From the IMG/VR virus record IMGVR_UViG_3300044695_006747, positions 1 through 64,000 of that record: DNA of 64,000 nt. One strand, given 5' to 3'. This stretch comes from a virus. Under the pieces are notes generated by a model. It had not been told where the DNA came from. It was given only the letters and a program-made list of their open reading frames with translations, and did no database searches. The first letter of the stretch is position 1; every line of letters begins with the position of its first letter. The position numbers and the translations under genes were made by a program. Below, piece after piece: positions 1 to 9,774 of the stretch.

Positions 1-498
1 TATTGGTCGTGGTGAGGACGCTATCCCCCATAGATTAGCATTACTATACAGCGTATAAGCCCGCTGTCAACCCCACGCTGCATAACAGCCGTAGGTTTAT
101 CGTAATGGCTTATCCTAATCTAGTCCCAGGCATGGACCCACGAAAGTTTATGACTAGACAGGCTCCTTACTGCAACTTTCCCAGTGTGACGATTCTTTAA
201 CATCTCTTGGCGAGTTCTCTCGTCTAGTCTTTGTATTGTAAATGCGGCGGGATTTTACCCACACTTCCCTCTGGGGGTCTAACGAACGATGATGGTAGTA
301 CTCCCTCTCACCGTCGGCTGCTCAACGCTTAACCTACGCATTATGTTTTAAGGGACGGATGGATTCGTTGATGCTATGGCGTCACAGGCATCTGCCTCAG
401 CCCGCGCTCTCAACTTGACCATCTACTTCACTACCGTTTACCGGGAGTTGCTCACGCAACCTCGCAGTCCCTTTTGATTTGTCAATGATCGCTTCGAA
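1..498 (-). ncRNA. Large structured non-coding RNA, 3' end beyond window
   Basis: About 500 nt without a credible gene, richer in G+C than the genes around it, and preceded by a strong minus-strand promoter (506-533). Read on the minus strand it folds well. A perfect 8-bp helix joins 222-229 to 152-159, and a 7-bp helix joins 174-180 to 142-148; the two cross, which implies a pseudoknot. A 7-bp helix (467-473 with 350-356) closes a domain of about 110 nt that contains a hairpin with a GUGA tetraloop (448-459). Other hairpins lie at 211-222, 77-89 and 48-67. The size, the phage setting and the nearby tRNA recall the ornate RNA classes GOLLD and ROOL, but I cannot assign a class by eye. The strand is chosen from the promoter and the GNRA loop. 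The predicted start is near 498. Confidence 0.65.
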
Positions 499-505
499 CT
501 CATGT

Positions 506-533
506 ATTCTACAATCTATTATCGGCTTGTCAA
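506..533 (-). promoter_or_regulatory. Sigma70-type promoter for the structured RNA
   Basis: On the minus strand: TTGACA (528-533), 16 bp, TAGAAT (506-511). An A/T tract lies just upstream of the -35 and could act as an UP element. Confidence 0.75.
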
Positions 534-556
534 GAAAAAAAATCCAGAAAAAAAGT

Positions 557-600
557 CTGCCATTTTGGCAGAAATCGCGGCCCCTCTGCCATTTCGGCAG
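557..600. repeat. Twin palindrome, copy 1
   Basis: CTGCCATTTTGGCAG at 557-571 and a one-mismatch copy at 586-600, centres 29 bp apart, with a spacer that begins AAATCGCGGCC. It lies just past the stop of the 613-1101 gene. On the minus strand the second hairpin is followed within 2 nt by seven T, so this copy could also work as an intrinsic terminator. Confidence 0.85.
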
Positions 601-612
601 GCGGGGTTTCTT

Positions 613-1101
613 TTAGGCTTCTACCTCATCATCAGCAAAAAAGTCTGTCAAACCAAAATCATTCCAAATAGCAATAGGAATCATATCCTTATTAGTATAT
701 TCGATATAGTTATCAAAACCATTATCATAAATACCACAAAAAGCCATACCCGGCTCAAAATAAGAAGCCTTTACATTATAGCCTAACTCTACCAGTTTTT
801 CATACAAACCAGTAGGAGGAGCCCAAGCACTATCGAACGTGGTACTAACTTGATTACCAACCCGTGTAGCCTTCAATCCATGCCATTCTTCCCTATCTGT
901 ACCAATATCAGCCCCAATATCCCACTTGGTTCCCCAGTTATTCACACAAAAATCATACCATTTTCCATTGTCATAATAATCTTCTGGCATAGGAATAAAC
1001 TCATTGCAAACCTTGCCAGCATTGTATGCTCGCTCAAAACGATCCACCATAGCGGGATCAGCGTGTTCAACGGTCAACTTGTTCAAGCACCAGTTGGGCA
1101 T
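613..1101 (-). CDS. Api92/DUF1281-like ferredoxin-fold protein
   Basis: 162 aa. The N-terminus MPNWCLNKLTV, the NNWGTKWD motif, the FDSAWAPP motif and the late F-x-G-x-Y segment match the Api92-like (DUF1281, YubB) family, which is frequent on phages, plasmids and integrative elements and has no established biochemical role. The start is set by AAAGGAAG about 6 nt upstream, which overlaps the stop of the 59-aa gene before it. The two genes therefore form a small operon from the promoter at 1313-1340. A twin palindrome follows the stop. Confidence 0.75.
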   Translation of the reverse strand: MPNWCLNKLTVEHADPAMVDRFERAYNAGKVCNEFIPMPEDYYDNGKWYDFCVNNWGTKWDIGADIGTDREEWHGLKATRVGNQVSTTFDSAWAPPTGLYEKLVELGYNVKASYFEPGMAFCGIYDNGFDNYIEYTNKDMIPIAIWNDFGLTDFFADDEVEA

Positions 1102-1112
1102 TTTTTCTTCCT

Positions 1113-1292
1113 TTAGTTTACACTAGGACGGGGCAACGGACGATCCACAAACAGCATAACGGTTTCCGCAATCTTGTCAATACCACTAGCAATCGTTTCG
1201 TATTGTTCTTCAGTATCCATACCGCTCATGCTGGTACTAATCACACAACAAGCAAACGTTTCCAAAATCTTAGCCAACTCGTCTCGTGTCAT
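1113..1292 (-). CDS. Small hypothetical protein (59 aa)
   Basis: Reads MTRDELAKILETF at its start and ends RPLPRPSVN. The good ribosome site AGGAG is 7 nt before the ATG. The sequence looks helical and amphipathic, with two adjacent Cys near residues 15-16 and no recognised domain. It is first in a two-gene operon with the Api92-like gene, whose ribosome site lies on its stop codon. Confidence 0.65.
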   Translation of the reverse strand: MTRDELAKILETFACCVISTSMSGMDTEEQYETIASGIDKIAETVMLFVDRPLPRPSVN

Positions 1293-1312
1293 TTTTGTTC
1301 TCCTGTGCTACG

Positions 1313-1340
1313 ATTCTACACTAATGTTATCGGTTGTCAA
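1313..1340 (-). promoter_or_regulatory. Sigma70-type promoter
   Basis: TTGACA (1335-1340), 16 bp, TAGAAT (1313-1318). The TGA stop of the upstream gene (1337-1339) is inside the -35 box. Confidence 0.75.
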
Positions 1341-1816
1341 GCCACCATAGCAATAGTTTTTCTGTGGTAGATTGTGGTGATGATATCCTGATTTTCCGCA
1401 TAGAACTTACGAGTTTTCATACTAGATTTGATCTGATCTTTAGGATACTTACAAATATACTCATAAGCATCCCTTACATGATCTTGTGACCAAAATCGGT
1501 CAACCAAATCCCCACACCGTACAGAAAACAGTATATCCACAAAACCCCGCTTATCCAGCACAATAAACAGAAAACGAATTTCTCTTTCTTCCCTGCTCAA
1601 ATCATAATACTTGCTAGGGTCAAGCCACTGTAGATCGGCCTGTTTCTTGCACTCTACCAAACAACCCAGCATATCATTACGATAATCGTACAACTTATGG
1701 CTAGAACGCTCCCATCCGTCAACCCTACTTAGAATAGAAGAAAGAATATTTTCCTTCCCCCCATAACCCTTCAGATTAGCCCTTGACAGGTTGTAAATTT
1801 GTTTTGCGGTGAGCAT
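1337..1816 (-). CDS. Hypothetical protein, possible PD-(D/E)XK-type nuclease
   Basis: 159 aa. The segment near residues 46-62 (DYRND, eight residues, then ECKKQADLQW) has the D...ExK spacing of PD-(D/E)XK nucleases, with a hydrophobic strand (IRFLFIVLD) after it. This is suggestive only. The ATG lies 6 nt after the -10 hexamer and no Shine-Dalgarno is seen, so the mRNA is predicted to be leaderless. The stop codon lies within the -35 of the next promoter. Function unknown otherwise. Confidence 0.6.
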   Translation of the reverse strand: MLTAKQIYNLSRANLKGYGGKENILSSILSRVDGWERSSHKLYDYRNDMLGCLVECKKQADLQWLDPSKYYDLSREEREIRFLFIVLDKRGFVDILFSVRCGDLVDRFWSQDHVRDAYEYICKYPKDQIKSSMKTRKFYAENQDIITTIYHRKTIAMVA

Positions 1817-1822
1817 GATTAG

Positions 1823-1850
1823 AGTTTACATCTAAAAGATTTTTTGTCAA
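1823..1850 (-). promoter_or_regulatory. Sigma70-type promoter, leaderless gene
   Basis: TTGACA (1845-1850), 16 bp, TAAACT (1823-1828). The downstream ATG (1816) falls where transcription should begin. Confidence 0.65.
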
Positions 1851-1861
1851 CAAATCTCGCT

Positions 1862-1900
1862 GACAACACCCATACCGCCCAAATCCGAAGGATTAGCAGA
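1862..1900 (-). repeat. Dispersed hairpin repeat, copy A
   Basis: About 37 nt shared with 3499-3536 and 5158-5195. On the minus strand it begins with the hairpin AATCC-TTC-GGATT and ends GTTGTCAGC. It sits between the tRNA and the next promoter. Role unknown. Confidence 0.55.
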
Positions 1901-1905
1901 AACAG

Positions 1906-1977
1906 CAGCCCCGTGGAGAATCGAACTCCAGTCTCTAGGATGAAAGCCTAGTATACTAACCACTATACGACGGGGCC
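1906..1977 (-). tRNA. tRNA-Glu (anticodon UUC)
   Basis: The cloverleaf reads 5' from 1977. The acceptor stem GGCCCCG pairs with CGGGGCT, and the D arm contains AGTGGTTAGT. The anticodon stem CTAGG/CCTAG holds the loop CTTTCAT, and the T arm is TGGAG-TTCGATT-CTCCA. The anticodon TTC reads GAA/GAG. The discriminator base is G, as is usual for tRNA-Glu. CCA is not encoded. It starts 3 nt after the stop of the 51-aa gene, so it is probably co-transcribed with it. GAA is common in the A/T-rich late genes. Confidence 0.92.
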
Positions 1978-1980
1978 AGA

Positions 1981-2136
1981 CTAACCAACCATTTTCTCAA
2001 TCCAAATATAACTACCATACTTATCCTGAGCCTTACGCATAGCATCGATTTCGCTCAGAGCAACAACATAACCAACAAATCGATTGTGTTGAAAAACACG
2101 CCACGAATAACCAGCATAACAGTTTGTAGTAATCAT
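1981..2136 (-). CDS. Small hypothetical protein (51 aa), leaderless
   Basis: Reads MITTNCYAGYSWRVF at its start, ends YIWIEKMVG, and is rich in aromatic residues. The ATG is 6 nt after TAGAAT with no Shine-Dalgarno, giving a predicted leaderless transcript that continues into the tRNA. No family recognised. The compact sequence resembles small phage inhibitor-type proteins, but nothing in it proves a function. Confidence 0.6.
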   Translation of the reverse strand: MITTNCYAGYSWRVFQHNRFVGYVVALSEIDAMRKAQDKYGSYIWIEKMVG

Positions 2137-2142
2137 ACGTTT

Positions 2143-2170
2143 ATTCTAACAGTTGTTATCGGCTTGTCAA
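2143..2170 (-). promoter_or_regulatory. Sigma70-type promoter for 51-aa gene and tRNA-Glu
   Basis: TTGACA (2165-2170), 16 bp, TAGAAT (2143-2148). Confidence 0.75.
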
Positions 2171-2183
2171 GAGGAGAACTTTA

Positions 2184-2227
2184 TTGCCATTTTGGCAGAA
2201 ACCGCGGCCGGCCTGCCATTTTGGCAG
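2184..2227. repeat. Twin palindrome, copy 2
   Basis: Palindromes at 2184-2198 and 2213-2227, centres 29 bp apart, spacer beginning AAACCGCGG. It lies between the stop of the 135-aa gene and the next -35 box. Confidence 0.85.
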
Positions 2228-2245
2228 AGCCTTAGCACAACCCCC

Positions 2246-2653
2246 TCAAAAGAGGAGGCTGGCCAAGCCGGTCTTGAAAGCAACCCCACCCAAGAGGGGA
2301 CGACGCACGTTGCGTGTACGCTCTGCGTAGAAGTTGCGAATCTTACCATCGGGCGTTTGGGCAGTCACAAGATGACGGCTACGCTCAAAGTTAGGATCAT
2401 CCTTACGATAGCGACTCTTGCTATTCAGGCGAGAAATGTAATCGTCAGAAAAACGATGCACTTCCAAAACCTTAGCCATGAATCGCTCAGGCAAACCCGT
2501 AACAGGCTGAACATATTCGAAGTTATAAACACTGCCAATCTTAGCATTCGTAAGCGTATCACGAAGACCACGATAGATATGAAACAGGCTGAAAGCCACA
2601 AGGCCAGCAACCACACCACCAGCAAACACAGCAAACATCGTAAAATCGTTCAT
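2246..2653 (-). CDS. Small membrane-anchored protein (135 aa)
   Basis: The start is MNDFTMFAVFAGG, chosen because CGAAAGGG lies 5-10 nt upstream of this ATG and the promoter precedes it; longer readings run through the promoter. One transmembrane segment covers about residues 6-25. It is followed by a soluble, basic and probably beta-rich domain with the stretches IGSVYNFEYVQP and TPDGKIRNFYAE. The predicted topology is a short N-terminal anchor with a cytoplasmic domain. No family assigned. The stop codon lies in a C-rich/GGGGGTT hairpin. Confidence 0.65.
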   Translation of the reverse strand: MNDFTMFAVFAGGVVAGLVAFSLFHIYRGLRDTLTNAKIGSVYNFEYVQPVTGLPERFMAKVLEVHRFSDDYISRLNSKSRYRKDDPNFERSRHLVTAQTPDGKIRNFYAERTRNVRRPLLGGVAFKTGLASLLF

Positions 2654-2693
2654 AAGAACCCTTTCGTTTAGAAATCCTTCACTCAATAAAACT

Positions 2694-2721
2694 AGCATAC
2701 CACAAGAAAACTGTTTGTCAA
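2694..2721 (-). promoter_or_regulatory. Sigma70-type promoter
   Basis: TTGACA (2716-2721), 16 bp, TATGCT (2694-2699). The TGA stop of the 113-aa gene (2718-2720) is part of the -35 box. Confidence 0.7.
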
Positions 2722-3059
2722 GCCTGAACTGTTGCAGGCACCACACTTTCCATAAGATTCTTGGCAATCTCGTGGAAGTTGACAGCACAAACGCTAGCGT
2801 TCAGCAGATCGGCCCAAACCGTTCCGGTCACGTTAGCGTCATTCAAAATCCGTTCCATTTGATCGTTATGCTTCTCTTTGAGTTTTTCGGCCAGAATACA
2901 AGCAGCATCCTCGACCTTGCTAAAATGAACCTGTTCGGATGCTTGGTGATTATAAACTTCCTCAGCAAGCCGACGCCAGTACGCACTTTTCGATTCCGTG
3001 TTGTCGATCCACAACTGAACAGCCCACGTTTCGTAGTTAGAGTAGCCGTTGTAAGTCAT
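2718..3059 (-). CDS. Conserved phage/plasmid protein with NYETW signature
   Basis: 113 aa. The N-terminal signature GYSNYETWAVQLWIDN marks a small helical family widespread in phages and conjugative elements, without an established role. A long helical stretch follows. The ribosome site AAAGGA is 7 nt upstream of the ATG. Its promoter is at 3087-3114, and its stop codon is reused as part of the next promoter. Confidence 0.75.
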   Translation of the reverse strand: MTYNGYSNYETWAVQLWIDNTESKSAYWRRLAEEVYNHQASEQVHFSKVEDAACILAEKLKEKHNDQMERILNDANVTGTVWADLLNASVCAVNFHEIAKNLMESVVPATVQA

Positions 3060-3086
3060 TGTTGGTTCCTTTGGGGTGATGCTTCA

Positions 3087-3114
3087 AAGATACCATATAG
3101 ATCGACACTGTCAA
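3087..3114 (-). promoter_or_regulatory. Sigma70-type promoter
   Basis: TTGACA (3109-3114), 16 bp, TATCTT (3087-3092). Confidence 0.7.
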
Positions 3115-3137
3115 ACAGAAAGTTGAAAAAATATTTG

Positions 3138-3181
3138 CTGCCATTTTGGCAGAAATCGCGGCCCGCCTGTCATTTTGGCAG
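3138..3181. repeat. Twin palindrome, copy 3
   Basis: Palindromes at 3138-3152 and 3167-3181, centres 29 bp apart, spacer beginning AAATCGCGGCC. A C-to-T change in the second arm creates the TGA stop of the 85-aa gene. A T-run follows on the minus strand. Confidence 0.85.
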
Positions 3182-3427
3182 ATAGGCTATTTCCTGACCG
3201 TTTTCGATCATAGCAGCATAAATAGCGATACGCTTATCTTTCTCTCGCTTCTCGATCTGATGATCGGTTTCTACACTGTCGCGTGAGTCACACTTATGTT
3301 CCAGATCGGCCAGCGAAACACCATCGGTGCGATTATCGCGGAAATCTTCAGGAAGCCAATCGTTTGGAACAACAATAACATCCTTGATCAGTCGCTCAAA
3401 CTCGGCCATCAGTTCGTAACCGTTCAT
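3170..3427 (-). CDS. Small hypothetical protein (85 aa)
   Basis: A charged, mostly helical protein: MNGYELMAEFERLIKD at the N-terminus and HQIEKREKDKRIAIYA near the C-terminus. The strong ribosome site AGAGGAG lies 7 nt before the ATG, and a consensus promoter precedes it. Its last codons and stop are supplied by the twin palindrome. No family recognised. Confidence 0.65.
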   Translation of the reverse strand: MNGYELMAEFERLIKDVIVVPNDWLPEDFRDNRTDGVSLADLEHKCDSRDSVETDHQIEKREKDKRIAIYAAMIENGQEIAYLPK

Positions 3428-3450
3428 CTTTTTCTCCTCTTGATGAATAG

Positions 3451-3478
3451 ATTATACATTTAGAATCGGCATTGTCAA
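3451..3478 (-). promoter_or_regulatory. Consensus sigma70 promoter
   Basis: TTGACA (3473-3478), 16 bp, TATAAT (3451-3456). The two hexamers are fully consensus. Confidence 0.85.
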
Positions 3479-3498
3479 CAAAAGAAAACGGTTTTTCG

Positions 3499-3536
3499 CT
3501 GACTACAGCCACTCTCGCCAAATCCGTAGGATTAGG
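3499..3536 (-). repeat. Dispersed hairpin repeat, copy B
   Basis: On the minus strand it contains AATCC-TAC-GGATT, then TTGGCGAGAGTGGCTGTAGT. Same layout as the copies at 1862 and 5158. Confidence 0.55.
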
Positions 3537-3541
3537 TAGGA

Positions 3542-3715
3542 CTAGTCGTAGTCCCTCATCGCTCGCCGGTTCTGGTCGCCGCGAGTTCGGCCACGCTTGG
3601 GGCGATTGTCGTGAGAGCCGCTACCGCTAATATGGTCGGAGTGTCCGCGACTCACTTCCCAAATCGGCTTCACATTCAGCCGAATCGAATCGTACTTTTT
3701 ATTTCGCTTGCTCAT
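3542..3715 (-). CDS. Small basic hypothetical protein (57 aa)
   Basis: Reads MSKRNKKYDSIRLNVKP and ends NRRAMRDYD, with a central GSGSHDNRPKRGRTRG stretch. It is strongly basic (many Lys and Arg) and could bind nucleic acid. The ATG lies only 9 nt after the -10 box, so the leader would be about 2-3 nt. No family recognised. Hairpin repeat copy B follows the stop. Confidence 0.6.
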   Translation of the reverse strand: MSKRNKKYDSIRLNVKPIWEVSRGHSDHISGSGSHDNRPKRGRTRGDQNRRAMRDYD

Positions 3716-3724
3716 GATGCCCTG

Positions 3725-3752
3725 ATTCTACACTAGTATCGGCCAGTGTCAA
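3725..3752 (-). promoter_or_regulatory. Sigma70-type promoter
   Basis: TTGACA (3747-3752), 16 bp, TAGAAT (3725-3730). Confidence 0.75.
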
Positions 3753-3776
3753 TAGAAAAATCCAAAAATATTTTTC

Positions 3777-3820
3777 CTGTCATTTTGGCAGAAATCGCGG
3801 CCCCGCTGCCATTTTGGCAG
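3777..3820. repeat. Twin palindrome, copy 4
   Basis: Palindromes at 3777-3791 and 3806-3820, centres 29 bp apart, spacer AAATCGCGGCCCCG. It lies 25 bp upstream of the next -35 on the minus strand. Confidence 0.85.
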
Positions 3821-3833
3821 ATCGGGGTTGTTT

Positions 3834-4127
3834 TCAGTAATCCTCGTTATAATCGCCGTAGAAACCGTAGTCCTCATCGGTTCCCCAGCCAGCACTGGCG
3901 AGGCCGGATTCGTGGTCGCCATCCATGCTGTCATAACCATCATCATCATAACCCTCATCTTCATTCATTTGATCACGGATTTCATCCAGCTCGTTTTCCG
4001 GCAAACCCCAAAAATCATTGTGATCATCATAGTTCACATCATCACGGTCGTGCGACTCATCATCAATCCACGGATAAATGGTACGCTCGGCCATCTCGTC
4101 GAAACGGTCAAAAGAATCCTGGCTCAT
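3834..4127 (-). CDS. Highly acidic hypothetical protein (97 aa)
   Basis: Start at MSQDSFDRFDEM, because GAGGAG lies 6 nt before this ATG. An ATG 39 nt further upstream is only 9 nt after the -10 box. The protein is extremely rich in Asp, Glu, Gly and Tyr, with runs such as NEDEGYDDDGYDSMDGD. DNA-mimic or protein-sequestering roles are typical of such acidic phage proteins but are not shown here. Its promoter lies partly inside the end of the 66-aa gene. Confidence 0.65.
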   Translation of the reverse strand: MSQDSFDRFDEMAERTIYPWIDDESHDRDDVNYDDHNDFWGLPENELDEIRDQMNEDEGYDDDGYDSMDGDHESGLASAGWGTDEDYGFYGDYNEDY

Positions 4128-4175
4128 CGTGTTCTCCTCATCGTGAAGGGGATCGGGGTGACTCATGACTTATCC

Positions 4176-4204
4176 TTTCTACACTAATCAAAACCGGTCG
4201 TCAA
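4176..4204 (-). promoter_or_regulatory. Sigma70-type promoter, 17-bp spacer
   Basis: TTGACG (4199-4204), 17 bp, TAGAAA (4176-4181). It overlaps the 3' end of the gene 4188-4388. Confidence 0.6.
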
Positions 4205-4388
4205 GGGGAGCAAACTCGTCAACAATGCCGACCACTTCGGCCCAATCCCAAAAGTCGGTCAGGTTGCTGGGATCATCAATCGGCTCGACCATCGGCTCGA
4301 CCGTACCATCGTCGGCCAGTTGAGAGAGCAAAGCGTTGATCGTGTCGGTATCATCGAGCAGACCAGCCATTCGCGGAAACTGATTCAT
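4188..4388 (-). CDS. Small acidic hypothetical protein (66 aa)
   Basis: Start MNQFPRMAGLLDDTD, set by CGGAG 8 nt upstream; a longer reading runs back into the leader. Acidic, with VEPMVEPIDD and DFWDWAEVVG segments, and probably helical. No family recognised. The TTTTGA at its end doubles as part of the next promoter's spacer. Confidence 0.6.
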   Translation of the reverse strand: MNQFPRMAGLLDDTDTINALLSQLADDGTVEPMVEPIDDPSNLTDFWDWAEVVGIVDEFAPLDDRF

Positions 4389-4417
4389 CGTCGTTTCTCC
4401 GTTGGGGTGATGCTTTG

Positions 4418-4445
4418 ATTCTACAGTTAGATATCGGCTTGTCAA
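4418..4445 (-). promoter_or_regulatory. Sigma70-type promoter
   Basis: TTGACA (4440-4445), 16 bp, TAGAAT (4418-4423). Confidence 0.75.
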
Positions 4446-4478
4446 GCAAAGAAAATGTAGTCAAAAAAAAGATTTTTT

Positions 4479-4494
4479 CGGCACACCGTTTGCT
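4479..4494 (+). promoter_or_regulatory. Sigma54-like -24/-12 element (a)
   Basis: CGGCACACCGTTTGCT: GG (4480-4481) and GC (4492-4493) are separated by exactly 10 bp. The predicted +1 (4505) is the centre of the palindrome that follows. Confidence 0.5.
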
Positions 4495-4497
4495 AGC

Positions 4498-4541
4498 CTG
4501 CCATTTTGGCAGCCGGGCCGCGGAAACTGCCATTTTGGCAG
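4498..4541. repeat. Twin palindrome, copy 5 (spacer inverted)
   Basis: Palindromes at 4498-4512 and 4527-4541, centres 29 bp apart. The spacer CCGGGCCGCGGAAA is the reverse complement of the type seen in copies 1-4. Confidence 0.85.
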
Positions 4542-4551
4542 CCCTTGATAT

Positions 4552-4629
4552 TTAGTGGATTAGGTAAACTGTGAGGCATCCAAAAATAAATGAACCACCG
4601 AAAATAATAATAAGATTATACTTAGTCAT
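4552..4629 (-). CDS. Tiny membrane protein (25 aa)
   Basis: Reads MTKYNLIIIFGGSFIF and ends CLTVYLIH, almost entirely one transmembrane helix. Its ATG overlaps the TAA of the 35-aa gene, and AAGGA precedes it. It is the last gene of a three-gene operon from 5050. No family recognised; tiny phage membrane proteins often target host envelope proteins. Confidence 0.5.
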   Translation of the reverse strand: MTKYNLIIIFGGSFIFGCLTVYLIH

Positions 4630-4729
4630 TTTTATTCCTTATAGGAAAAACAAGATCACAAACAACGTAACTAGCAATAACGCCGCAAGCAAATCCCACA
4701 CCTATTTGTACCCAGTTCATATCGGCCAT
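4622..4729 (-). CDS. Tiny membrane protein (35 aa)
   Basis: Reads MADMNWVQIGVGFACG and ends VFPIRNKND. One transmembrane helix (about residues 6-29) is followed by a short basic tail. AAAGGGG lies upstream of the ATG. It begins about 20 nt after the stop of the 100-aa gene, and its end overlaps the start of the 25-aa gene, which suggests coupled translation. Confidence 0.55.
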   Translation of the reverse strand: MADMNWVQIGVGFACGVIASYVVCDLVFPIRNKND

Positions 4730-4747
4730 CCCTTGCCCCTTTCTTTA

Positions 4748-5050
4748 TTAGGAGTTCACCAAAATATTATCTTCAAACTCTGTACCATCCTGCAAAAACC
4801 ATTCATACTTTCGCTGGTAAACTTTCACAGGAGAATACTGATTGATTCGCTTTTTCGTGGTATGGGTATGATATCCGCCACTATTCAACTTTACAAGCCC
4901 ATTCGGATAGAATCGTACAACGGCCGTACCATGCAACCGAATAGAAACACTGTTATCGTACTCGATTTCCGCATAGGTATTATTACCAACTTTACGAGTC
5001 TTACGATTCGTCTTACCGTGAACCAGAGTAACCGCTTCAGTATAGTTCAT
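4748..5050 (-). CDS. Conserved phage hypothetical protein (100 aa)
   Basis: Start MNYTEAVTLVHGKTNRK, set by TTGGAG upstream; a longer reading enters the leader. The pattern (basic N-terminal helix, NNTYAEIEYDNSVSIRLHG, FYPNGLVKLNSGGYHT, then TTKKRINQYSP) belongs to a small family seen widely on phages and plasmids, without a known function. It is probably beta-rich. It heads an operon with two tiny membrane proteins. Confidence 0.7.
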   Translation of the reverse strand: MNYTEAVTLVHGKTNRKTRKVGNNTYAEIEYDNSVSIRLHGTAVVRFYPNGLVKLNSGGYHTHTTKKRINQYSPVKVYQRKYEWFLQDGTEFEDNILVNS

Positions 5051-5054
5051 TTTT

Positions 5055-5141
5055 CTACTCCAATGAAAGCAACCAAACCACACTAAGAATCATACTACCC
5101 GCAATCCACACTGTCAATACCAATCCGATCAAGATTTCCAT
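5055..5141 (-). CDS. Tiny membrane protein (28 aa)
   Basis: Reads MEILIGLVLTVWIAG and ends VVWLLSLE, a single hydrophobic helix. GAGG lies 6 nt before the ATG. Its stop is within the ribosome site of the next gene. A promoter (5089-5117) lies inside it, so it would be translated only from longer transcripts. Supported by the ribosome site and composition only. Confidence 0.4.
   Translation of the reverse strand: MEILIGLVLTVWIAGSMILSVVWLLSLE
5089..5117 (-). promoter_or_regulatory. Sigma70-type promoter, 17-bp spacer
   Basis: TTGACA (5112-5117), 17 bp, TATGAT (5089-5094). It drives the 100-aa gene and the two tiny membrane genes. Confidence 0.65.
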
Positions 5142-5157
5142 TAGGCCCTCATTTTGG

Positions 5158-5195
5158 CTGACTATAGCCCACCTTGCCAATCCGATAGGATCGGA
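5158..5195 (-). repeat. Dispersed hairpin repeat, copy C
   Basis: On the minus strand: CCGATCCTATCGGATT, then GGCAAGGTGGGCTATAGTCA. It is the most diverged of the three copies, but a hairpin is kept. Confidence 0.5.
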
Positions 5196-5206
5196 TAAGA
5201 CAAATC

Positions 5207-5224
5207 AACCCCCACAACAGGGGA
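5207..5224 (-). terminator. Hairpin after the 71-aa gene
   Basis: On the minus strand, TCCCCTGTTGTGGGG followed by GTTGATTTG. The CCCC/GGGG stem starts right after the stop codon. The T-run is weak. Confidence 0.45.
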
Positions 5225-5440
5225 CTATGAAACCCCCATCCAAGCGGCATTTTCCAGACAGTAAATATAAAACATATCATTCAGTATTTCCCGATAGTTA
5301 CTATCGGTCAACCGACGACGATCCCTAGTAGACTCACATTCAGCATATAGCCTACCATCTGGCGTGCCGATAAACGTCACGTTATGGCTTTCGCTTCCCC
5401 AAATCTGCTTCAACGCATCACGAAACTTGTTGATTTCCAT
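5225..5440 (-). CDS. Small hypothetical protein (71 aa)
   Basis: Start MEINKFRDALKQIWG, placed by AGGAG 8 nt upstream and by the promoter at 5472-5499; a longer reading crosses the promoter. A mixed alpha/beta pattern (HNVTFIGTPDGRLYAECE) precedes a helical C-terminus. No family recognised. The gene is followed by a hairpin. Confidence 0.65.
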   Translation of the reverse strand: MEINKFRDALKQIWGSESHNVTFIGTPDGRLYAECESTRDRRRLTDSNYREILNDMFYIYCLENAAWMGVS

Positions 5441-5471
5441 TTTTCTTTCTCCTGCTACTAGGTATATCGGT

Positions 5472-5499
5472 ATTCTACCAGCCATCCCTTGAATGTCAA
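5472..5499 (-). promoter_or_regulatory. Sigma70-type promoter
   Basis: TTGACA (5494-5499), 16 bp, TAGAAT (5472-5477), preceded by an eight-T tract. Confidence 0.75.
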
Positions 5500-5532
5500 A
5501 CAAAAAAAATAGCAGAATAATATTTTGTGGTT

Positions 5533-5548
5533 TGGTACGGATTTTGCT
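5533..5548 (+). promoter_or_regulatory. Sigma54-like -24/-12 element (f)
   Basis: TGGTACGGATTTTGCT: GG (5534-5535) and GC (5546-5547) are 10 bp apart. The palindrome at 5554-5568 spans the predicted +1. Confidence 0.45.
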
Positions 5549-5553
5549 GGTGG

Positions 5554-5597
5554 CTGCCATTTTGGCAGAAATCGCGCGCCGCCTGCCATTTTGGCAG
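5554..5597. repeat. Twin palindrome, copy 6
   Basis: Palindromes at 5554-5568 and 5583-5597, centres 29 bp apart, spacer AAATCGCGCGCCGC. Confidence 0.85.
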
Positions 5598-5609
5598 TAT
5601 TACTTTTCC

Positions 5610-5837
5610 TTATGATGCCTTACCAGCGTATGTAATATAATCTTCCCTATTATTATAACCATGATATCTATATGTAGCACAAGTCATAAACTGTATTACA
5701 TCTTTCATCTTATCAAAAGTGTAACAAGCATGAGTAATCTTACTACGCAGAACATACTTTACAATCTGGCCATCAAAATGCAGATTATAGTTATTCTCTT
5801 CTGCTTTGTTCTCAATATCAACGATTCTATATCTCAT
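5610..5837 (-). CDS. Small hypothetical protein (75 aa)
   Basis: Start MRYRIVDIENKAEENN, placed by AAAGGA upstream that follows the stop of the zinc-ribbon gene. The pattern HFDGQIVKYVLRS, then CYTFDKMKDVIQFMTCATYRY suggests a small alpha/beta fold. No family recognised. It is the third gene of an operon (6218, 6024, 5837). Confidence 0.65.
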   Translation of the reverse strand: MRYRIVDIENKAEENNYNLHFDGQIVKYVLRSKITHACYTFDKMKDVIQFMTCATYRYHGYNNREDYITYAGKAS

Positions 5838-5850
5838 GTTACTATTCCTT

Positions 5851-6024
5851 TCAGCCAAACTGCTCATACTCTTCATCACTCAAATACGGCTCATTTGGAC
5901 GATAGCAGTTGTAACTACCATAATGGTCAGCATTAGTCTCATAATCACACTCTCGCCCACAACGCGAACAAGTAGGCTCATAATCAACAATATCAACCCT
6001 AACACCACAACAGTTACTATTCAT
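5851..6024 (-). CDS. Small zinc-ribbon protein (57 aa)
   Basis: Reads MNSNCCGVRVDIVDYEP, then TCSRCGREC. The two knuckles (CC near residue 5 and CxxCxxxC near 19-26) suggest one bound zinc. It is a distant relative of the 67-aa protein at 6615, which shares CCGVxV and CxRCGxxC. GAGG lies 7 nt before the ATG, and it is coupled to neighbours on both sides. The role is unknown; such proteins usually contact nucleic acid or other proteins. Confidence 0.65.
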   Translation of the reverse strand: MNSNCCGVRVDIVDYEPTCSRCGRECDYETNADHYGSYNCYRPNEPYLSDEEYEQFG

Positions 6025-6026
6025 AC

Positions 6027-6218
6027 TCAAACCTCTGCGTAATCGGTCAACTGATCCTGATTAAACAGTCCGAACTGACCATTTTCATCCTTAACAAAAA
6101 ACATAACAAGCGGCTTACCATTCTCGATAATAACATCGAAACTAGTAACAGTAACCTTGCGACCCGAAAGAGTCTTAGCGGTTATGGTCATGACGCTGGT
6201 AATATCGTTGGTAATCAT
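6027..6218 (-). CDS. Small hypothetical protein (63 aa), probable beta-barrel
   Basis: Reads MITNDITSVMTITAKT, then SGRKVTVTSFDVIIENG, KPLVMFFVKDENGQF. This is a run of short beta strands typical of a small SH3- or OB-like barrel. AAGG lies upstream of the ATG. It is first of three coupled genes from the promoter at 6265-6293. No family recognised. Confidence 0.6.
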   Translation of the reverse strand: MITNDITSVMTITAKTLSGRKVTVTSFDVIIENGKPLVMFFVKDENGQFGLFNQDQLTDYAEV

Positions 6219-6227
6219 TTTTATACC

Positions 6228-6299
6228 TTAGAGCGAGAGATAAACGGCCGAAACCACACTGAACAGCATAACAAATGCAAGAGAGATTGTCAAGACCAT
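6228..6299 (-). CDS. Tiny membrane peptide (23 aa)
   Basis: Reads MVLTISLAFVMLFSVV and ends SAVYLSL, a single hydrophobic helix. GAGGAG lies 5 nt before the ATG. The promoter of the downstream operon lies inside it, the same arrangement as the 28-aa gene at 5055. Confidence 0.4.
   Translation of the reverse strand: MVLTISLAFVMLFSVVSAVYLSL
6265..6293 (-). promoter_or_regulatory. Sigma70-type promoter, 17-bp spacer
   Basis: TTGACA (6288-6293), 17 bp, TATGCT (6265-6270). It drives the three-gene operon 6218-5610. Confidence 0.65.
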
Positions 6300-6308
6300 T
6301 TTTACTCC

Positions 6309-6548
6309 TCAAACCCCCACACTAGGGGGACTACTCTTGAAGTTGAGTCGAGATTGCAAATGTAACTCGTCAAGAACGAAACCGACCGCACGATCCCTGC
6401 TACCACGGAAAACGTAGTATTTCATACGAATATCGAATAGCGAAACCGTGCCATCCGTTTCGGGATGCACAGTAAAACCGGCACGATAAGCGTAACCATT
6501 CAAGCGACCGGCGACAGTTGAGCGGGAAGGGATTTTCTTGACTTTCAT
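6309..6548 (-). CDS. Small basic hypothetical protein (79 aa)
   Basis: Reads MKVKKIPSRSTVAGRLNG, then AYRAGFTVHPETDGTVSLFD, KYYVFRGSRDRAVGFVLDE. It is basic with mixed alpha/beta character. The leader before the ATG is almost all purine (GGAAAGAAAGAAAGAAA). Its last six codons and stop lie inside a CCCCC/GGGGG hairpin, so coding and probable termination signals overlap. No family recognised. Confidence 0.6.
   Translation of the reverse strand: MKVKKIPSRSTVAGRLNGYAYRAGFTVHPETDGTVSLFDIRMKYYVFRGSRDRAVGFVLDELHLQSRLNFKSSPPSVGV
6311..6329 (-). terminator. Hairpin overlapping a stop codon
   Basis: Stem 6314-6318 with 6325-6329 (five C-G pairs, 6-nt loop). On the minus strand it is followed by TTTGA, and the stop of the 79-aa gene is in the 3' flank. 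Confidence 0.45.
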
Positions 6549-6569
6549 TTTCTTTCTTTCTTTCCTACT

Positions 6570-6597
6570 ATTCTACCAAACTTTTCTATCTAATCAA
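6570..6597 (-). promoter_or_regulatory. Sigma70-type promoter
   Basis: TTGATT (6592-6597), 16 bp, TAGAAT (6570-6575). It begins at the end of the preceding gene's hairpin. Confidence 0.6.
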
Positions 6598-6598
6598 C

Positions 6599-6614
6599 CC
6601 CCACTATTGTGGGA
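6599..6614 (-). terminator. Hairpin after the 67-aa gene
   Basis: CCCAC/GTGGG stem (6600-6604 with 6609-6613) directly after the TAG stop, then GGTTGATT on the minus strand. Confidence 0.45.
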
Positions 6615-6818
6615 CTACCATTGATTTCGACGATACTCGTCGTACTCCTCCTGCTCCTCACGACGCTGGCGAGCGGTAACAGGAGGGCCATAGCCCTCGT
6701 TGTATGCGTCAACAGCCGCATCGTAAGCCTCACCGCCACCATCATCACAATGCTCACCGCAACGGGGGCAAATATCCTGAAAATGAACCGGAACACCACA
6801 GCAATCACTAATAATCAT
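6615..6818 (-). CDS. Small zinc-ribbon protein (67 aa)
   Basis: Reads MIISDCCGVPVHFQDI, then CPRCGEHCDD. The Cys pairs (6-7 and about 17-24) suggest zinc binding. An acidic and then basic helical tail follows (ARQRREEQEEYDEYRR). It is a paralogue of the 57-aa protein at 5851. The leader is a run of more than 25 purines with no clear Shine-Dalgarno. Confidence 0.65.
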   Translation of the reverse strand: MIISDCCGVPVHFQDICPRCGEHCDDGGGEAYDAAVDAYNEGYGPPVTARQRREEQEEYDEYRRNQW

Positions 6819-6855
6819 CTTTCTCTCTCTTTCTTTCTCTTTCTTCTATATCGAC

Positions 6856-6883
6856 ATTATACCAAACACAACTTGAATGTCAA
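6856..6883 (-). promoter_or_regulatory. Consensus sigma70 promoter
   Basis: TTGACA (6878-6883), 16 bp, TATAAT (6856-6861). Confidence 0.85.
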
Positions 6884-6915
6884 ACAAAAAAAATCGGTTG
6901 AAAAAAAGTTTTTTG

Positions 6916-6931
6916 TGGCACGGTATTTGCT
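6916..6931 (+). promoter_or_regulatory. Sigma54-like -24/-12 element (b)
   Basis: TGGCACGGTATTTGCT: GG (6917-6918) and GC (6929-6930) are 10 bp apart. Full match to the TGGCACG-N4-TTGC consensus. Confidence 0.55.
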
Positions 6932-6958
6932 AGTAGCAAACCGCGTACCAAAAAAGTT

Positions 6959-6974
6959 TGGCACAAGATTTGCT
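6959..6974 (+). promoter_or_regulatory. Sigma54-like -24/-12 element (c)
   Basis: TGGCACAAGATTTGCT: GG (6960-6961) and GC (6972-6973) are 10 bp apart. The predicted +1 (6985) is within 1 nt of the centre of the palindrome at 6979-6993. Confidence 0.55.
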
Positions 6975-6978
6975 GTGG

Positions 6979-7043
6979 CTGCCATTTTGGCAGTCGCCGC
7001 GCGGTTTCTGCCATTTTGGCAGTCAAGGCTGCCAAGTTGACAG
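6979..7043. repeat. Twin palindrome, copy 7, with degenerate third arm
   Basis: Palindromes at 6979-6993 and 7008-7022, centres 29 bp apart. The spacer TCGCCGCGCGGTTT is in inverted orientation. A degenerate third arm lies at 7029-7043. Confidence 0.85.
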
Positions 7044-7062
7044 AACCCCTCTCGTGGGTGGG

Positions 7063-7383
7063 TCACCCCTCCCAAGCGAACGGGCTAATCTCCTCCCCCA
7101 TAGTGAGGGTGGCCTCATATTGTGACCGCAAAGCCTCCACCCTCTCCCGACTTCCCGGCTTGCCCACCTTCACAATCATCGTATCCTCACCCAAACCCAT
7201 CCGAGGGTCAACCTTTTCGGCCTTGACGTTGACGCTATCCCGCATGGCCGAGCGATTGAACTTCAACACCTTTTCGCTGCGAATCATACCGCCATCGGCA
7301 GTAGACTTGTCGCAGGGAATGGCGATACCGCTGAAGCAAAGGTAGGCTTGACGCTTGGCCTTTTCGATGATCGGGAAACTCAT
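7063..7383 (-). CDS. Hypothetical protein (106 aa)
   Basis: Reads MSFPIIEKAKRQAYLCF at its start, with a central KFNRSAMRDSVNVKAEKVD and a strand TMIVKVGKP. It is basic with mixed secondary structure and no recognised family. AGGAAAAG lies upstream of the ATG. The stop codon sits in a G/C-rich hairpin, as for several neighbours. Confidence 0.65.
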   Translation of the reverse strand: MSFPIIEKAKRQAYLCFSGIAIPCDKSTADGGMIRSEKVLKFNRSAMRDSVNVKAEKVDPRMGLGEDTMIVKVGKPGSRERVEALRSQYEATLTMGEEISPFAWEG

Positions 7384-7414
7384 GATTCTTTTCCTATGGT
7401 GAAGTGAAAAACCG

Positions 7415-7443
7415 AATGTACCAAACTAGCCTAGACTGCTCAA
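7415..7443 (-). promoter_or_regulatory. Weak sigma70-type promoter
   Basis: TTGAGC (7438-7443), 17 bp, TACATT (7415-7420). It is weaker than the others in the series. Confidence 0.4.
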
Positions 7444-7448
7444 CCCCC

Positions 7449-7694
7449 TCACACGAGGCAGGGAGCCTCGGTGAACCAGACCTTGCAATCTTCAAGGTAG
7501 ATGCTCTTGTGGATCACGGGCATCTCGCCCACACTATACATACGATCATTTTCCAGACTATCGGCAAACCGAATCGTGACCAGCGTACCGCGAGCATATG
7601 CTGCAACCTTGACGATTTCGCCAGCATACGTCTTGCCGTTATTCTTCTCACACTCGAAACCGAAACCAACCTGAACACTTCCAAACTTCATCAT
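7449..7694 (-). CDS. Small beta-barrel (SH3/KOW-like) hypothetical protein
   Basis: Start at the in-frame ATG 7694 (MMKFGSVQVGFGFECE), which is 8 nt from GAGGAG; an ATG two codons earlier is only 2 nt from it. The pattern GSVQVGFGFECE, KTYAGEIVKVAAY, GTLVTIRFADS looks like a small SH3-like barrel. It resembles the 66-aa protein at 8243 in layout. Its end overlaps a hairpin. Function unknown. Confidence 0.6.
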   Translation of the reverse strand: MMKFGSVQVGFGFECEKNNGKTYAGEIVKVAAYARGTLVTIRFADSLENDRMYSVGEMPVIHKSIYLEDCKVWFTEAPCLV

Positions 7695-7721
7695 CTTCAT
7701 CTCTCCTCTTGTGATACTCTG

Positions 7722-7749
7722 ATTCTACATTAGATATCGTCGATTGCAA
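7722..7749 (-). promoter_or_regulatory. Sigma70-type promoter
   Basis: TTGCAA (7744-7749), 16 bp, TAGAAT (7722-7727), with a nine-T tract upstream. Confidence 0.6.
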
Positions 7750-7812
7750 GAAAAAAAAATAGGAAAAAATCCGTTGGTGAAAACTTCATCGCTGTCATAT
7801 TGGCATGCCATT

Positions 7813-7828
7813 TGGCACGAGATTTGCT
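7813..7828 (+). promoter_or_regulatory. Sigma54-like -24/-12 element (d)
   Basis: TGGCACGAGATTTGCT: GG (7814-7815) and GC (7826-7827) are 10 bp apart, an exact TGGCACG-N4-TTGCT. The predicted +1 (7839) is within 1 nt of the palindrome centre. Confidence 0.6.
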
Positions 7829-7832
7829 GATG

Positions 7833-7900
7833 CTGCCATTTTGGCAGATTTCGCGCGATTTCTGCCATTTTGGCAGTCGCCTTGTCTGCCATTGTGGCAG
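7833..7900. repeat. Triple palindrome, copy 8
   Basis: Palindromes at 7833-7847, 7862-7876 and 7886-7900. The first two have centres 29 bp apart with the near-symmetric spacer ATTTCGCGCGATTT. A degenerate arm also lies upstream at 7792-7806. Confidence 0.85.
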
Positions 7901-8565: not shown

Positions 8566-8581
8566 TGGCACAGGGTTTGCT
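8566..8581 (+). promoter_or_regulatory. Sigma54-like -24/-12 element (e)
   Basis: TGGCACAGGGTTTGCT: GG (8567-8568) and GC (8579-8580) are 10 bp apart. This copy is followed not by the palindrome but by a terminator hairpin at the predicted +1. Confidence 0.5.
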
Positions 8582-8590
8582 ACGGCAGTT

Positions 8591-8614
8591 CCCCACCTAT
8601 GGGGGGGTTTTTTT
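8591..8614 (+). terminator. Intrinsic terminator, plus strand
   Basis: CCCC-ACCTAT-GGGG followed by seven T. A second G/C-rich hairpin (8629-8644) lies just beyond it and could serve the minus-strand regulator gene. Together they insulate the small-gene region from the late operon. Confidence 0.75.
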
Positions 8615-8698: not shown

Positions 8699-8926
8699 TT
8701 ACTCAATAGTTTGAATATTTGACTGGTCTACCAATTTAATTTTTCTTGGTCGCCCACGGCTTTTCTTAATATTGAGCTTGCGGCGTTGACGTCGAATCAT
8801 GCTTTTAGTAACATTTTGCCCCGTCATTTCACTTAATTTTGCAGCTAATGTTTCATCATTCATTAGATTCTGGTTGTTAGAAATAAAGTCCAATTCGTTT
8901 TGTAGCCATTTCTTATAATTCGCCAT
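8699..8926 (-). CDS. AT-hook/HTH DNA-binding regulator (75 aa)
   Basis: Reads MANYKKWLQNELDFISN. A helix-turn-helix-like stretch (ETLAAKLSEMTGQNVTKS) is followed by a basic helix (MIRRQRRKLNIKKS) and a C-terminal AT-hook core (SRGRPRKIK). Start chosen by TTAGGAG 7-8 nt upstream. It is divergent from the late operon, with only 76 bp between the start codons, so it is well placed to repress or activate the strong promoter at 8943-8970 and its own. The N-terminal part resembles the HTH of the protein at 9761. Confidence 0.7.
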   Translation of the reverse strand: MANYKKWLQNELDFISNNQNLMNDETLAAKLSEMTGQNVTKSMIRRQRRKLNIKKSRGRPRKIKLVDQSNIQTIE

Positions 8927-9002: not shown

Positions 9003-9173
9003 ATGAAAAATGAACCAAATATTCCCGACATAGTAATTGACTCAATATTGACCACAAAAGCCCTAGGATCTGTACAAGATATATCAAAAGAGCTACAATT
9101 ACCAGACGGTAAAAATCTAGAAGAATTATTAAATGACCAAAAAGAAGAAGAAGACACAAAAGATACTAAATAA
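9003..9173 (+). CDS. Small hypothetical protein (56 aa), first gene of late operon
   Basis: Reads MKNEPNIPDIVIDSIL and ends KEEEDTKDTK. AAGGAG lies 8 nt before the ATG. The N-terminal part (TTKALGSVQDISKELQLPD) is helical and the tail is charged. It overlaps the sigma-like gene by 41 nt in another frame, so translation is probably coupled. It could be a partner or anti-factor of that protein, but only position supports this. Confidence 0.7.
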   Translation: MKNEPNIPDIVIDSILTTKALGSVQDISKELQLPDGKNLEELLNDQKEEEDTKDTK

Positions 9174-9774
9174 TGGAGTAACAGAAGAAGAATTTTTAGA
9201 AGTTTTAAATAATATATCAAAAAGATTGGTCCATAAATTTAGATTCGGATATCACGATATTGATGATATGAAACAACAAGCCGCCATATTCGCTATGGAA
9301 GGTTTGGAAAAATTTGATAACACTAGGCCTCTAGAAAACTTTCTTTGGACCCACGTTCGAAATCGATTGTTTAACTACAAAAGAAACAACTACCAAAGGC
9401 CCGATAAACCCTGCTTAAGTTGTCCTTTTTACGACTTGTTATACAAAGAATCTAACAACCAGTGCTCAAAATACAAAAATAAAGATGACTGTGAATTATA
9501 TTTCTCATGGTCTGAACGAAATAATAGCAAAAAAAATATTATGACTTTTCAGAGCATAGAAAATACTTTTGAAAAAGAAGACCACAAAGATCCACTAGAT
9601 ATTATTAAAAACAAAGAAATTATTAGTTATCTTGATAATAATATTGTTAAACCAGAATTTAGAGAAAGCTATTTAAGATTAAAGAATGGATTAAAACTAA
9701 ACAAACCTCTATTGGAAAAATTAAAAAATCACATTATGGAATTGATGAAAGACTTTAATCATGACAGAGAATAG
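9133..9774 (+). CDS. Sigma-factor-like protein with Cys cluster (213 aa)
   Basis: Residues about 25-90 match sigma region 2: HDIDDMKQQAAIFAMEGLEK, then FDNTRPLENFLWTHVRNRLF, where the D-x-x-Q/F-DP-like core and the aromatic W-x-x-x-x-R segment contact the -10 element in sigma factors. An insert with Cys at 94, 97, 111 and 120 probably binds zinc. Region 4 is not obvious; the C-terminal 60 residues are helical. It is the likely phage factor for late promoters and sits first in the late operon. Confidence 0.7.
   Translation: MTKKKKKTQKILNNGVTEEEFLEVLNNISKRLVHKFRFGYHDIDDMKQQAAIFAMEGLEKFDNTRPLENFLWTHVRNRLFNYKRNNYQRPDKPCLSCPFYDLLYKESNNQCSKYKNKDDCELYFSWSERNNSKKNIMTFQSIENTFEKEDHKDPLDIIKNKEIISYLDNNIVKPEFRESYLRLKNGLKLNKPLLEKLKNHIMELMKDFNHDRE

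Follow-up and report, generated by a model that had tools for sequence, protein, structure and literature searches.

Organization of the early region

The window, that is, the whole stretch of 64,000 nucleotides that was analysed, corresponds to positions 1 to 64,000 of the IMG/VR virus record IMGVR_UViG_3300044695_006747 (186.8 kb). Between positions 557 and 7900, eight intergenic gaps each contain a pair of 15-bp palindromes, hereafter called a twin, and each of these twins is located upstream of one leftward sigma-70 early promoter. The features of the region are the following.

506-533, minus strand: sigma-70 promoter at twin 1 (TTGACA-16-TAGAAT)
557-600, plus strand: twin 1 (arms 557-571 and 586-600), 23 bp to the leftward -35 at 533
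2143-2170, leftward: sigma-70 promoter
2184-2227, plus strand: twin 2, 13 bp to the -35 at 2170
3087-3114, leftward: sigma-70 promoter
3138-3181, plus strand: twin 3, 23 bp to the -35 at 3114
3725-3752, leftward: sigma-70 promoter
3777-3820, plus strand: twin 4, 24 bp to the -35 at 3752
4418-4445, leftward: sigma-70 promoter
Directly before twin 5: diverged sigma-54-like element CGGCACACCGTTTGCT, recognized from the sequence
4498-4541, plus strand: twin 5, both arms exact
5472-5499, leftward: sigma-70 promoter
5533-5548, plus strand: sigma-54-type -24/-12 element TGGTACGGATTTTGCT, 21 bp before twin 6
5554-5597, plus strand: twin 6, both arms exact
6856-6883, leftward: sigma-70 promoter
6916-6931, plus strand: sigma-54-type element TGGCACGGTATTTGCT
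6935-6950, minus strand: sigma-54-type element TGGTACGCGGTTTGCT
6959-6974, plus strand: sigma-54-type element TGGCACAAGATTTGCT, 20 bp before twin 7
6979-7022, plus strand: twin 7, both arms exact
7029-7043: diverged third unit of twin 7
7722-7749, leftward: sigma-70 promoter
7813-7828, plus strand: sigma-54-type element TGGCACGAGATTTGCT, 20 bp before twin 8
7833-7876, plus strand: twin 8, both arms exact
7886-7900, plus strand: third palindrome unit CTGCCATTGTGGCAG, at a 24-bp spacing from arm 2 of twin 8
8566-8581, plus strand: last sigma-54-type element, without a twin and followed by a plus-strand terminator, an arrangement that recurs in relatives
8587-8609, plus strand: intrinsic-terminator-like hairpin with T-run
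8699-8926, minus strand: gene of a small AT-hook/HTH-like protein (AT_hook E=0.073, below the cut-off)
9133-9774, plus strand: late sigma-factor-like gene, close to where the rightward late operon begins

All eight pairs reported in the first-pass annotation were recovered, with arm starts exactly 29 bp apart. At up to three mismatches, the window contains 34 palindrome matches as compared with 1.66 expected, and a chance origin was rejected. Both arms are perfect in four pairs (4498, 5554, 6979, 7833), and the other four have a single mismatch in one arm (CTGCCATTTCGGCAG at 586, TTGCCATTTTGGCAG at 2184, CTGTCATTTTGGCAG at 3167 and 3777). Six further twins, all at 29 bp, are found near the opposite end of the record (178987-185740), and the 29-bp spacing holds for 14 of the 14 twins of this record. 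The unit at 7886-7900, the six distal twins, the sigma-54-type elements beside twins 5-8 and the register to the leftward sigma-70 promoters were absent from the first-pass annotation.

The gaps separating twins 1 to 8 from the -35 boxes measure 23, 13, 23, 24, 52, 54, 95, and 83 bp, respectively. Twins near the late operon also have -24/-12 elements (TTTGGCAYRAKATTTGCT), which mostly point through the twin toward the late sigma-factor gene. Six sites of this type are present, where 0.07 would be expected, and an origin by chance was discarded. The product of 9133-9774 matches Sigma70_r2 with an E-value of 1.2e-4, just under the cut-off, and a PHROG sigma factor with an E-value of 4.9e-4. In 32 related loci, a homologue of it lies on the downstream side of the array, and a homologue of the 8699 protein adjoins the array in more than 30. 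For the early proteins beside the twins, mostly no informative families were found. The search for a sigma-54, an AAA+ activator or an HTH_8 protein encoded by the phage was negative: PF00158 and PF04552 have no match in the record itself, and an HTH_8 domain gene occurs in 0 of 13 phage records. The Rfam search returned a tRNA-Glu only, and terminase comparison gave distant relatives only, without revealing the phage host.

Conservation of the twins and of their register in related phages

The 15-mer pair and its spacing are conserved in relatives, contrary to the outcome that the first-pass annotation had named as a refutation. When spacers of 0-30 were taken into account, 112 of 123 exact 15-mer pairs, distributed over 51 IMG/VR contigs, had a 14-bp spacer (29 bp centre to centre). 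Arm conservation is symmetric, with inner edges kept at 98-100% and outer edges at 70-92%, and the inner half-sites are better kept than the outer ones. As to the spacer, the features previously described hold in the window, where all copies have the CGCG core, copies 5 and 7 are inverted and copy 8 is nearly symmetric. In relatives, however, the core follows the looser pattern SS-YR-SS, whose central step is CG or TA, YR occupying the spacer centre in 138 of 145 twins. As DNA, the 44-bp element behaves like a dyad of dyads, which favours protein binding over an RNA hairpin.

The position relative to the early promoters is also preserved. In the phage family, 65 of 145 twins have the -35 at a distance of 23-25 bp. 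About two thirds of the phage twins have no sigma-54 element and adjoin sigma-70 promoters; for these, 74 of 108 measurable gaps are 21-26 bp long. Strict helical phasing outside this peak was tested on 34 gaps, which are not independent; the signal is weak (resultant 0.35, p ~0.03), and nothing is built on it here.

The sigma-54-type elements have a geometry of their own. The 5-bp spacer of TGGCAC-N5-TTGC is found in 162 of 162 phage elements, and GG and GC are retained at 105 sites, although GG had been required by the search filter. In 62 of 69 cases, the distance from the start of the element to arm 1 is 19-21 bp, and most elements lie 3-5 bp from the twin and point into it. A sigma-54 promoter about 60-150 bp off and pointing away from an enhancer was not observed at the phage twins.

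Related dyads in Planctomycetota chaperone control regions

The dyad of the phage twins, CTGYCA-N3-TGRCAG, is also found upstream of dnaK sigma-54 promoters in Planctomycetota. Among 86 dnaK upstream regions, 40 contain dyads scoring at least 11/12 (55 dyads as compared with 0.2 expected). The groEL upstream regions are weaker in this respect than those of dnaK, with a dyad at this score in 4 of 30. Spacings of 40 bp (12 times) and 29 bp (four times) occur between dnaK dyads, the difference being one helical turn. Dyads paired at fixed spacing occur on both sides, at 29 bp in phages and at 40 or 29 bp in hosts, and in hosts they lie upstream of sigma-54-like dnaK or groEL promoters, near an activator gene.

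A scan of 84,980 species for loose twins gave three matches. The only one with CTG/CAG arm edges is located between an NtrC-type activator gene and dnaK, and a sigma-54-like promoter lies in the same interval. The 29-bp twin occurs in five Planctomycetota genomes, before dnaK (four) or groEL (one), each time with a sigma-54-like promoter 62-75 bp off and pointing at the gene. In more than half of 33 loci checked, an NtrC-type activator gene adjoins dnaK, and the recognition helix of this activator is largely conserved. These observations may be set beside the reported enrichment of sigma-54-type promoters at the GroEL, DnaK, GrpE, and DnaJ genes of Planctomycetota (PMC12316311). Clostridial twins (L076, L078) were set aside, in view of their toxin-antitoxin-like gene neighbourhoods.

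Possible functions of the twins

Taken together, the virus has probably copied, in its twins, a sigma-54 heat-shock enhancer (UAS) of its host, of the Planctomycetota dnaK type. The first-pass annotation had suggested a dimer-of-dimers DNA-binding protein, and a binder acting as a pair of dimers is indeed supported because of the 29-bp rule over 51 contigs, the better-kept inner half-sites and the occurrence of the same dyad in host dnaK control regions. Two dimers of the host NtrC-type, DnaK-linked activator would bind each twin via their Fis-type HTH, and the phage host would be a member of the Planctomycetota. The phage repeats the twin many times, in fixed register upstream of early sigma-70 promoters, and adds consensus sigma-54 -24/-12 elements in the gaps nearest the late operon. 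Most likely, early gene control would thereby be tied to the chaperone-stress response of the host. Infection would activate the host activator, the twins would become occupied and the adjoining early promoters would be modulated. On the opposite strand, sigma-54 polymerase might be fired or held, aimed at the late sigma-factor gene, and the outcome might favour a shift from early to late expression, a switch that is less likely than not and less certain than the identity of the enhancer.

Several observations count against the enhancer model. Sigma-70 promoters are not normally controlled by NtrC-type activators. The predicted sigma-54 start site would fall inside arm 1, and the last sigma-54-type element is often closely followed by a terminator. 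In hosts, unlike in the phages, the sigma-54-like promoters lie 62-75 bp or more from the dyads and point outwards. Finally, in phage twins the central TTT hardly varies, in sequence or in orientation, but both are free in host dyads, a difference that a symmetric dimer does not explain.

The twins might instead be operators of a phage regulator such as the 8699 AT-hook/HTH protein, which the first-pass annotation had put forward as the first binder to test and which would repress or activate the early promoters in a stoperator-like manner. The recurrence of its gene beside the array and the fixed register to the early sigma-70 promoters speak for this explanation. However, bacterial dnaK control regions contain the same dyad with its 29/40-bp pairing, the AT-hook match does not reach the cut-off, and CTGCCA...TGGCAG is not an AT-hook-type target, AT-hooks binding the AT-rich minor groove. 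Regulation of this kind is unlikely. As for the protein itself, it is a weaker candidate than the host activator because the motif occurs in Planctomycetota without phage, beside an NtrC-type activator gene. Since a genome contains 14 twins along with several sigma-54-type elements, and phage arms are nearer consensus than most host sites, one may also imagine decoys, multiplied by replication, that titrate the host heat-shock activator, together with sigma-54 polymerase, and damp the host response. Decoys need no fixed distance to a promoter, yet such a distance prevails among the measurable gaps, and we regard this role as quite improbable.

Paired RNA hairpins, which the first-pass annotation had also proposed, might act as intrinsic and perhaps bidirectional terminators or as processing sites between early genes. 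A 6-bp stem can form in each arm. Of the 140 twins that lack sigma-54 elements, 83 have an A-rich left flank, and about 17 have a longer arm 2, lengthened by complementary bases with a plus-strand T-run after them, a plausible terminator extension on the strand opposite to that of the genes. At twin 4, for instance, the right arm is extended by CCCCG/CGGGG and then TTGTTTT, giving a plus-strand terminator-like hairpin. As a general role, this proposal is not supported. A stem in the transcribed strand followed by a U-tract is not the rule, and gene-sense pairing is lost in many copies: the arm changes, mainly T4.G12 and G6.T10, leave A.C mismatches in the gene-sense RNA, a pattern because of which hairpins were rejected as the main function. 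In addition, the A-rich flank is found in 1 of the 69 twins beside sigma-54 elements, which are yet the best conserved, and hairpins explain neither the 29-bp rule nor the dnaK enhancers. The hairpin explanation is very improbable, and a terminator role would apply to only a minority of copies. Lastly, the many near-identical copies within one region could suggest recent duplications or a REP/MITE-like repeat without function. This can hardly be so, since arms and 29-bp distance are kept over 51 contigs with widely different spacers and flanks, and orthologous gaps retain their own spacers.

Returning to the host-type enhancer, a more specific scenario, which is conceivable but tentative, is that a large lineage of phages of Planctomycetota uses the host sigma-54 heat-shock circuit for its early-late switch, via enhancer arrays bound by the host chaperone activator. 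Sigma-54 polymerase would then fire in two directions from promoters placed back to back, against the early genes and toward the late sigma-factor gene. If the enhancer model is true, a widespread phage lineage becomes linked to its likely host phylum by a regulatory code, and the enhancer and probable activator of the Planctomycetota sigma-54 heat-shock response are identified. Predictions are opened on the binding protein, on heat-responsive genes, and on sigma-54 transcript starts on the phage.

Comparison with known systems

In the open literature, we found no description of multi-copy host sigma-54 enhancer arrays in phages. The closest parallel is given by the sigma-54 enhancers of the NtrC family, such as the paired NtrC sites upstream of glnA. 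The twins resemble them in that short palindromes come in pairs, at a constant distance near three helical turns, and, as tested on the host side, by a Fis-type HTH partner and the association with TGGCAC-N5-TTGC promoters. They differ in that, in the phage, sigma-70 promoters are the neighbours of the sites, and the sigma-54 elements lie directly against the twin, facing into it. FleQ and FlrC act at downstream enhancers of flagellar sigma-54 promoters; there, as in the phage gaps, activator sites coincide with the sigma-54 start or lie downstream of it, but the motif differs and the promoters drive the gene behind the enhancer. The stoperators of mycobacteriophage L5, single asymmetric sites for the phage repressor, share with the twins their many copies of one protein site, in short intergenic gaps and with fixed orientation to transcription, whereas the twins are paired dyads common to a host regulon. 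In Clostridia, GTGYCA...TGGCAC pairs at 29 bp occur in MntA/HepT-type and RES-gene neighbourhoods (L076, L078), but with other arm edges, an AT-rich spacer and a toxin-antitoxin-like context. Finally, the chaperone control of Planctomycetota concerns the same genes and the same promoter class (PMC12316311). The passages of that article that were consulted describe neither the dyad, nor its activator, nor a link to phages; the dyad is likely the enhancer of these sigma-54 chaperone promoters.

Twin palindromes as a conserved DNA element

All eight pairs of 15-bp palindromic arms that the first-pass annotation had placed in intergenic gaps (557-7900) were confirmed, with exactly 29 bp from arm start to arm start; both arms are perfect in four of these twins and the other four have one mismatch. 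The window covers the first 64 kb of a virus record of 186,823 bp, which looks complete because of its 126-bp direct terminal repeat. Beyond the window, six more twins occur at 178987-185740, every one at 29 bp. Were the two ends of the record to join, the 14 twins would share a single early region some 16 kb long. Window 1-535 holds the terminal repeat and no long ORF, and may function in packaging or as an RNA. Further features of the window are:

1905-1977, minus strand: tRNA-Glu (TTC), inside the early region
1861-1905, 3481-3540 and 5157-5210: recurrent element of GGCTGAC-N-TCAGCC type, then GATAGGATCGG

The recurrent element is found near early-gene 3′ ends and, in relatives, also to the right of many twins; it has no Rfam match.

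The pair is likewise upheld in related phages, where 64 stretches, drawn from 51 IMG/VR contigs, contain the exact arms with the 14-bp spacer. With spacers of 0-30 allowed, 112 pairs have length 14 and 11 any other, as counted from the tables. Among sites with at most three mismatches in the fetched loci, distance 29 occurs 497 times and the runner-up 31 times, each locus having been fetched by one exact twin (a seed bias) and the remaining twins being unselected. Spacers and flanks differ so widely among twins that recent copying of one sequence is ruled out. Where twins lack sigma-54 elements, conservation is high at the inner edges (arm 1 G15 in 142/145, arm 2 C1 in 145/145) and lower at the outer edges (arm 1 C1 in 101/145, arm 2 G15 in 134/145); the two middle spacer positions are pyrimidine and purine, each in 138/145, with G/C on either side. 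Therefore, the 44-bp element has approximate symmetry around the middle of the spacer, which would be expected of two dimers meeting there, in line with the dimer-of-dimers binder proposed earlier. A symmetric dimer does not explain why phage twins have a central TTT that is nearly fixed, in its orientation too (188/224 in arm 1), whereas both are free in the host dyads described below.

Termination or RNA processing had also been envisaged as the common function. The commonest arm changes, T4 opposite G12 and G6 opposite T10, argue against it, since they give A.C mismatches in gene-sense (minus) RNA. Only about 17 of 140 twins have complementary bases that lengthen arm 2 and then a T-run, and this on the plus strand. 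Thus, some twins may also serve as terminators, in a minority role.

Promoters around the twins

Leftward early genes start from TTGACA-16-TAGAAT promoters. The distance from twin to -35 is 23-25 bp in 65/145 cases and 12-16 bp in 14/145; the 23-bp stretch, rich in A/T, resembles an UP element. Another 19 distances cluster at 51-54 and go with sigma-54 elements. Helical phasing outside the main peak is weakly supported.

On the plus strand, TTTGGCAYRAKATTTGCT stands before the twins closest to the late operon; by its sequence, it is the sigma-54 -24/-12 consensus. TGGCAY and TTGC are 5 apart in 162/162 cases. Of the 69 twins possessing an element, 62 have its start 19-21 bp ahead of arm 1. Where elements occur in tandem, the usual distance is 26-27 or 37-38 bp. 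The last element lacks a twin, and a T-rich terminator commonly comes after it. Two features lie downstream:

8587-8609, plus strand: strong terminator, conserved in relatives, soon after the last twin-less sigma-54 element
9133-9774, plus strand: sigma-70 region 2-like protein, encoded close to where the late operon begins, with homologues in 32 related loci

The terminator is on the plus strand although the adjoining early genes are on the minus strand. The 9133-9774 product is probably a late sigma factor, and in the 32 loci at least one element points in the same direction as its homologue. Elements in the gene direction also occur, in two related contigs (L015/L054; L023/L035/L057).

A related arrangement upstream of dnaK

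The loose twin was sought in 84,980 species of bacteria and archaea and gave three matches. One of them, in a Planctomycetota MAG, separates dnaK from a gene whose product has Response_reg, Sigma54_activat and HTH_8 domains. With a relaxed pattern, 11 of 392 Planctomycetota genomes matched, versus 2 for the reversed control. In five of the 11, the twin lies ahead of dnaK (four genomes) or groEL (one genome); in each, TGGCAY-N5-TTG(C/T) stands between the two, at 62-75 bp from the twin, and is directed at the gene.

In a broad Planctomycetota sample of 86 dnaK upstream regions, 55 CTGYCA-N3-TGRCAG dyads at 11 or 12 of 12 positions were found in 40 regions (Markov control, 0.2), including 18 perfect dyads versus none in the control. 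Spacings of dyad pairs peak at 40 bp (12 pairs) and at 29 bp (4 pairs), which differ by one helical turn; the 29-bp count is not independent, as four regions carried the twin known from earlier scans, and both the dyad enrichment and the peak at 40 bp are independent of those scans. At a loose threshold, a sigma-54-like element is present in 51 dyad-bearing regions too. Of 33 loci checked, more than half have a gene for an NtrC-type activator next to dnaK, and its recognition helix hardly varies. The activator, whose HTH (GERTLYRK) is near-constant, is often directly upstream of dnaK, and dyads occupy the gap between them (bacterial loci L088, L090, L093, L101 and others). This arrangement is probably a heat-shock control module, apparently undescribed. 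PMC12316311 describes sigma-54-type promoters as enriched at chaperone genes of Planctomycetota.

Interpretation and comparison with known systems

On the simplest reading, the phage twin would be the host's DnaK-linked sigma-54 enhancer, in multiple copies and at its 29-bp spacing. Binding would control the early promoters, and sigma-54 transcription would run against the early genes, towards the late sigma-factor gene. A phage-encoded binder is possible; however, a search of 13 phage records detected no HTH_8 protein, and in the phage's own record nothing matched sigma-54 or an AAA+ activator, so that the binder is most likely the host's. From the enhancer alone, we infer a host among the Planctomycetota. 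The twins may possibly act as decoys. The enhancer reading leaves unexplained why a sigma-54 element stands directly before a palindrome or terminator.

Pairs with the same 29-bp distance also occur in clostridial loci:

L076:5028-5069 and L078:7845-7886: GTGCCAAAATGGCAC-type pairs

They adjoin a nucleotidyltransferase/HepT module (with HTH_3) and follow a RES-domain gene. They are likely toxin-antitoxin operators, and their geometry would be convergent.

Unlike in the host, the sigma-54 element of the phage directly adjoins the twin and is directed into it. FleQ and FlrC, with their downstream enhancers, are a precedent for this geometry. Similarly, TyrR offers a precedent for NtrC-like action at sigma-70 promoters.
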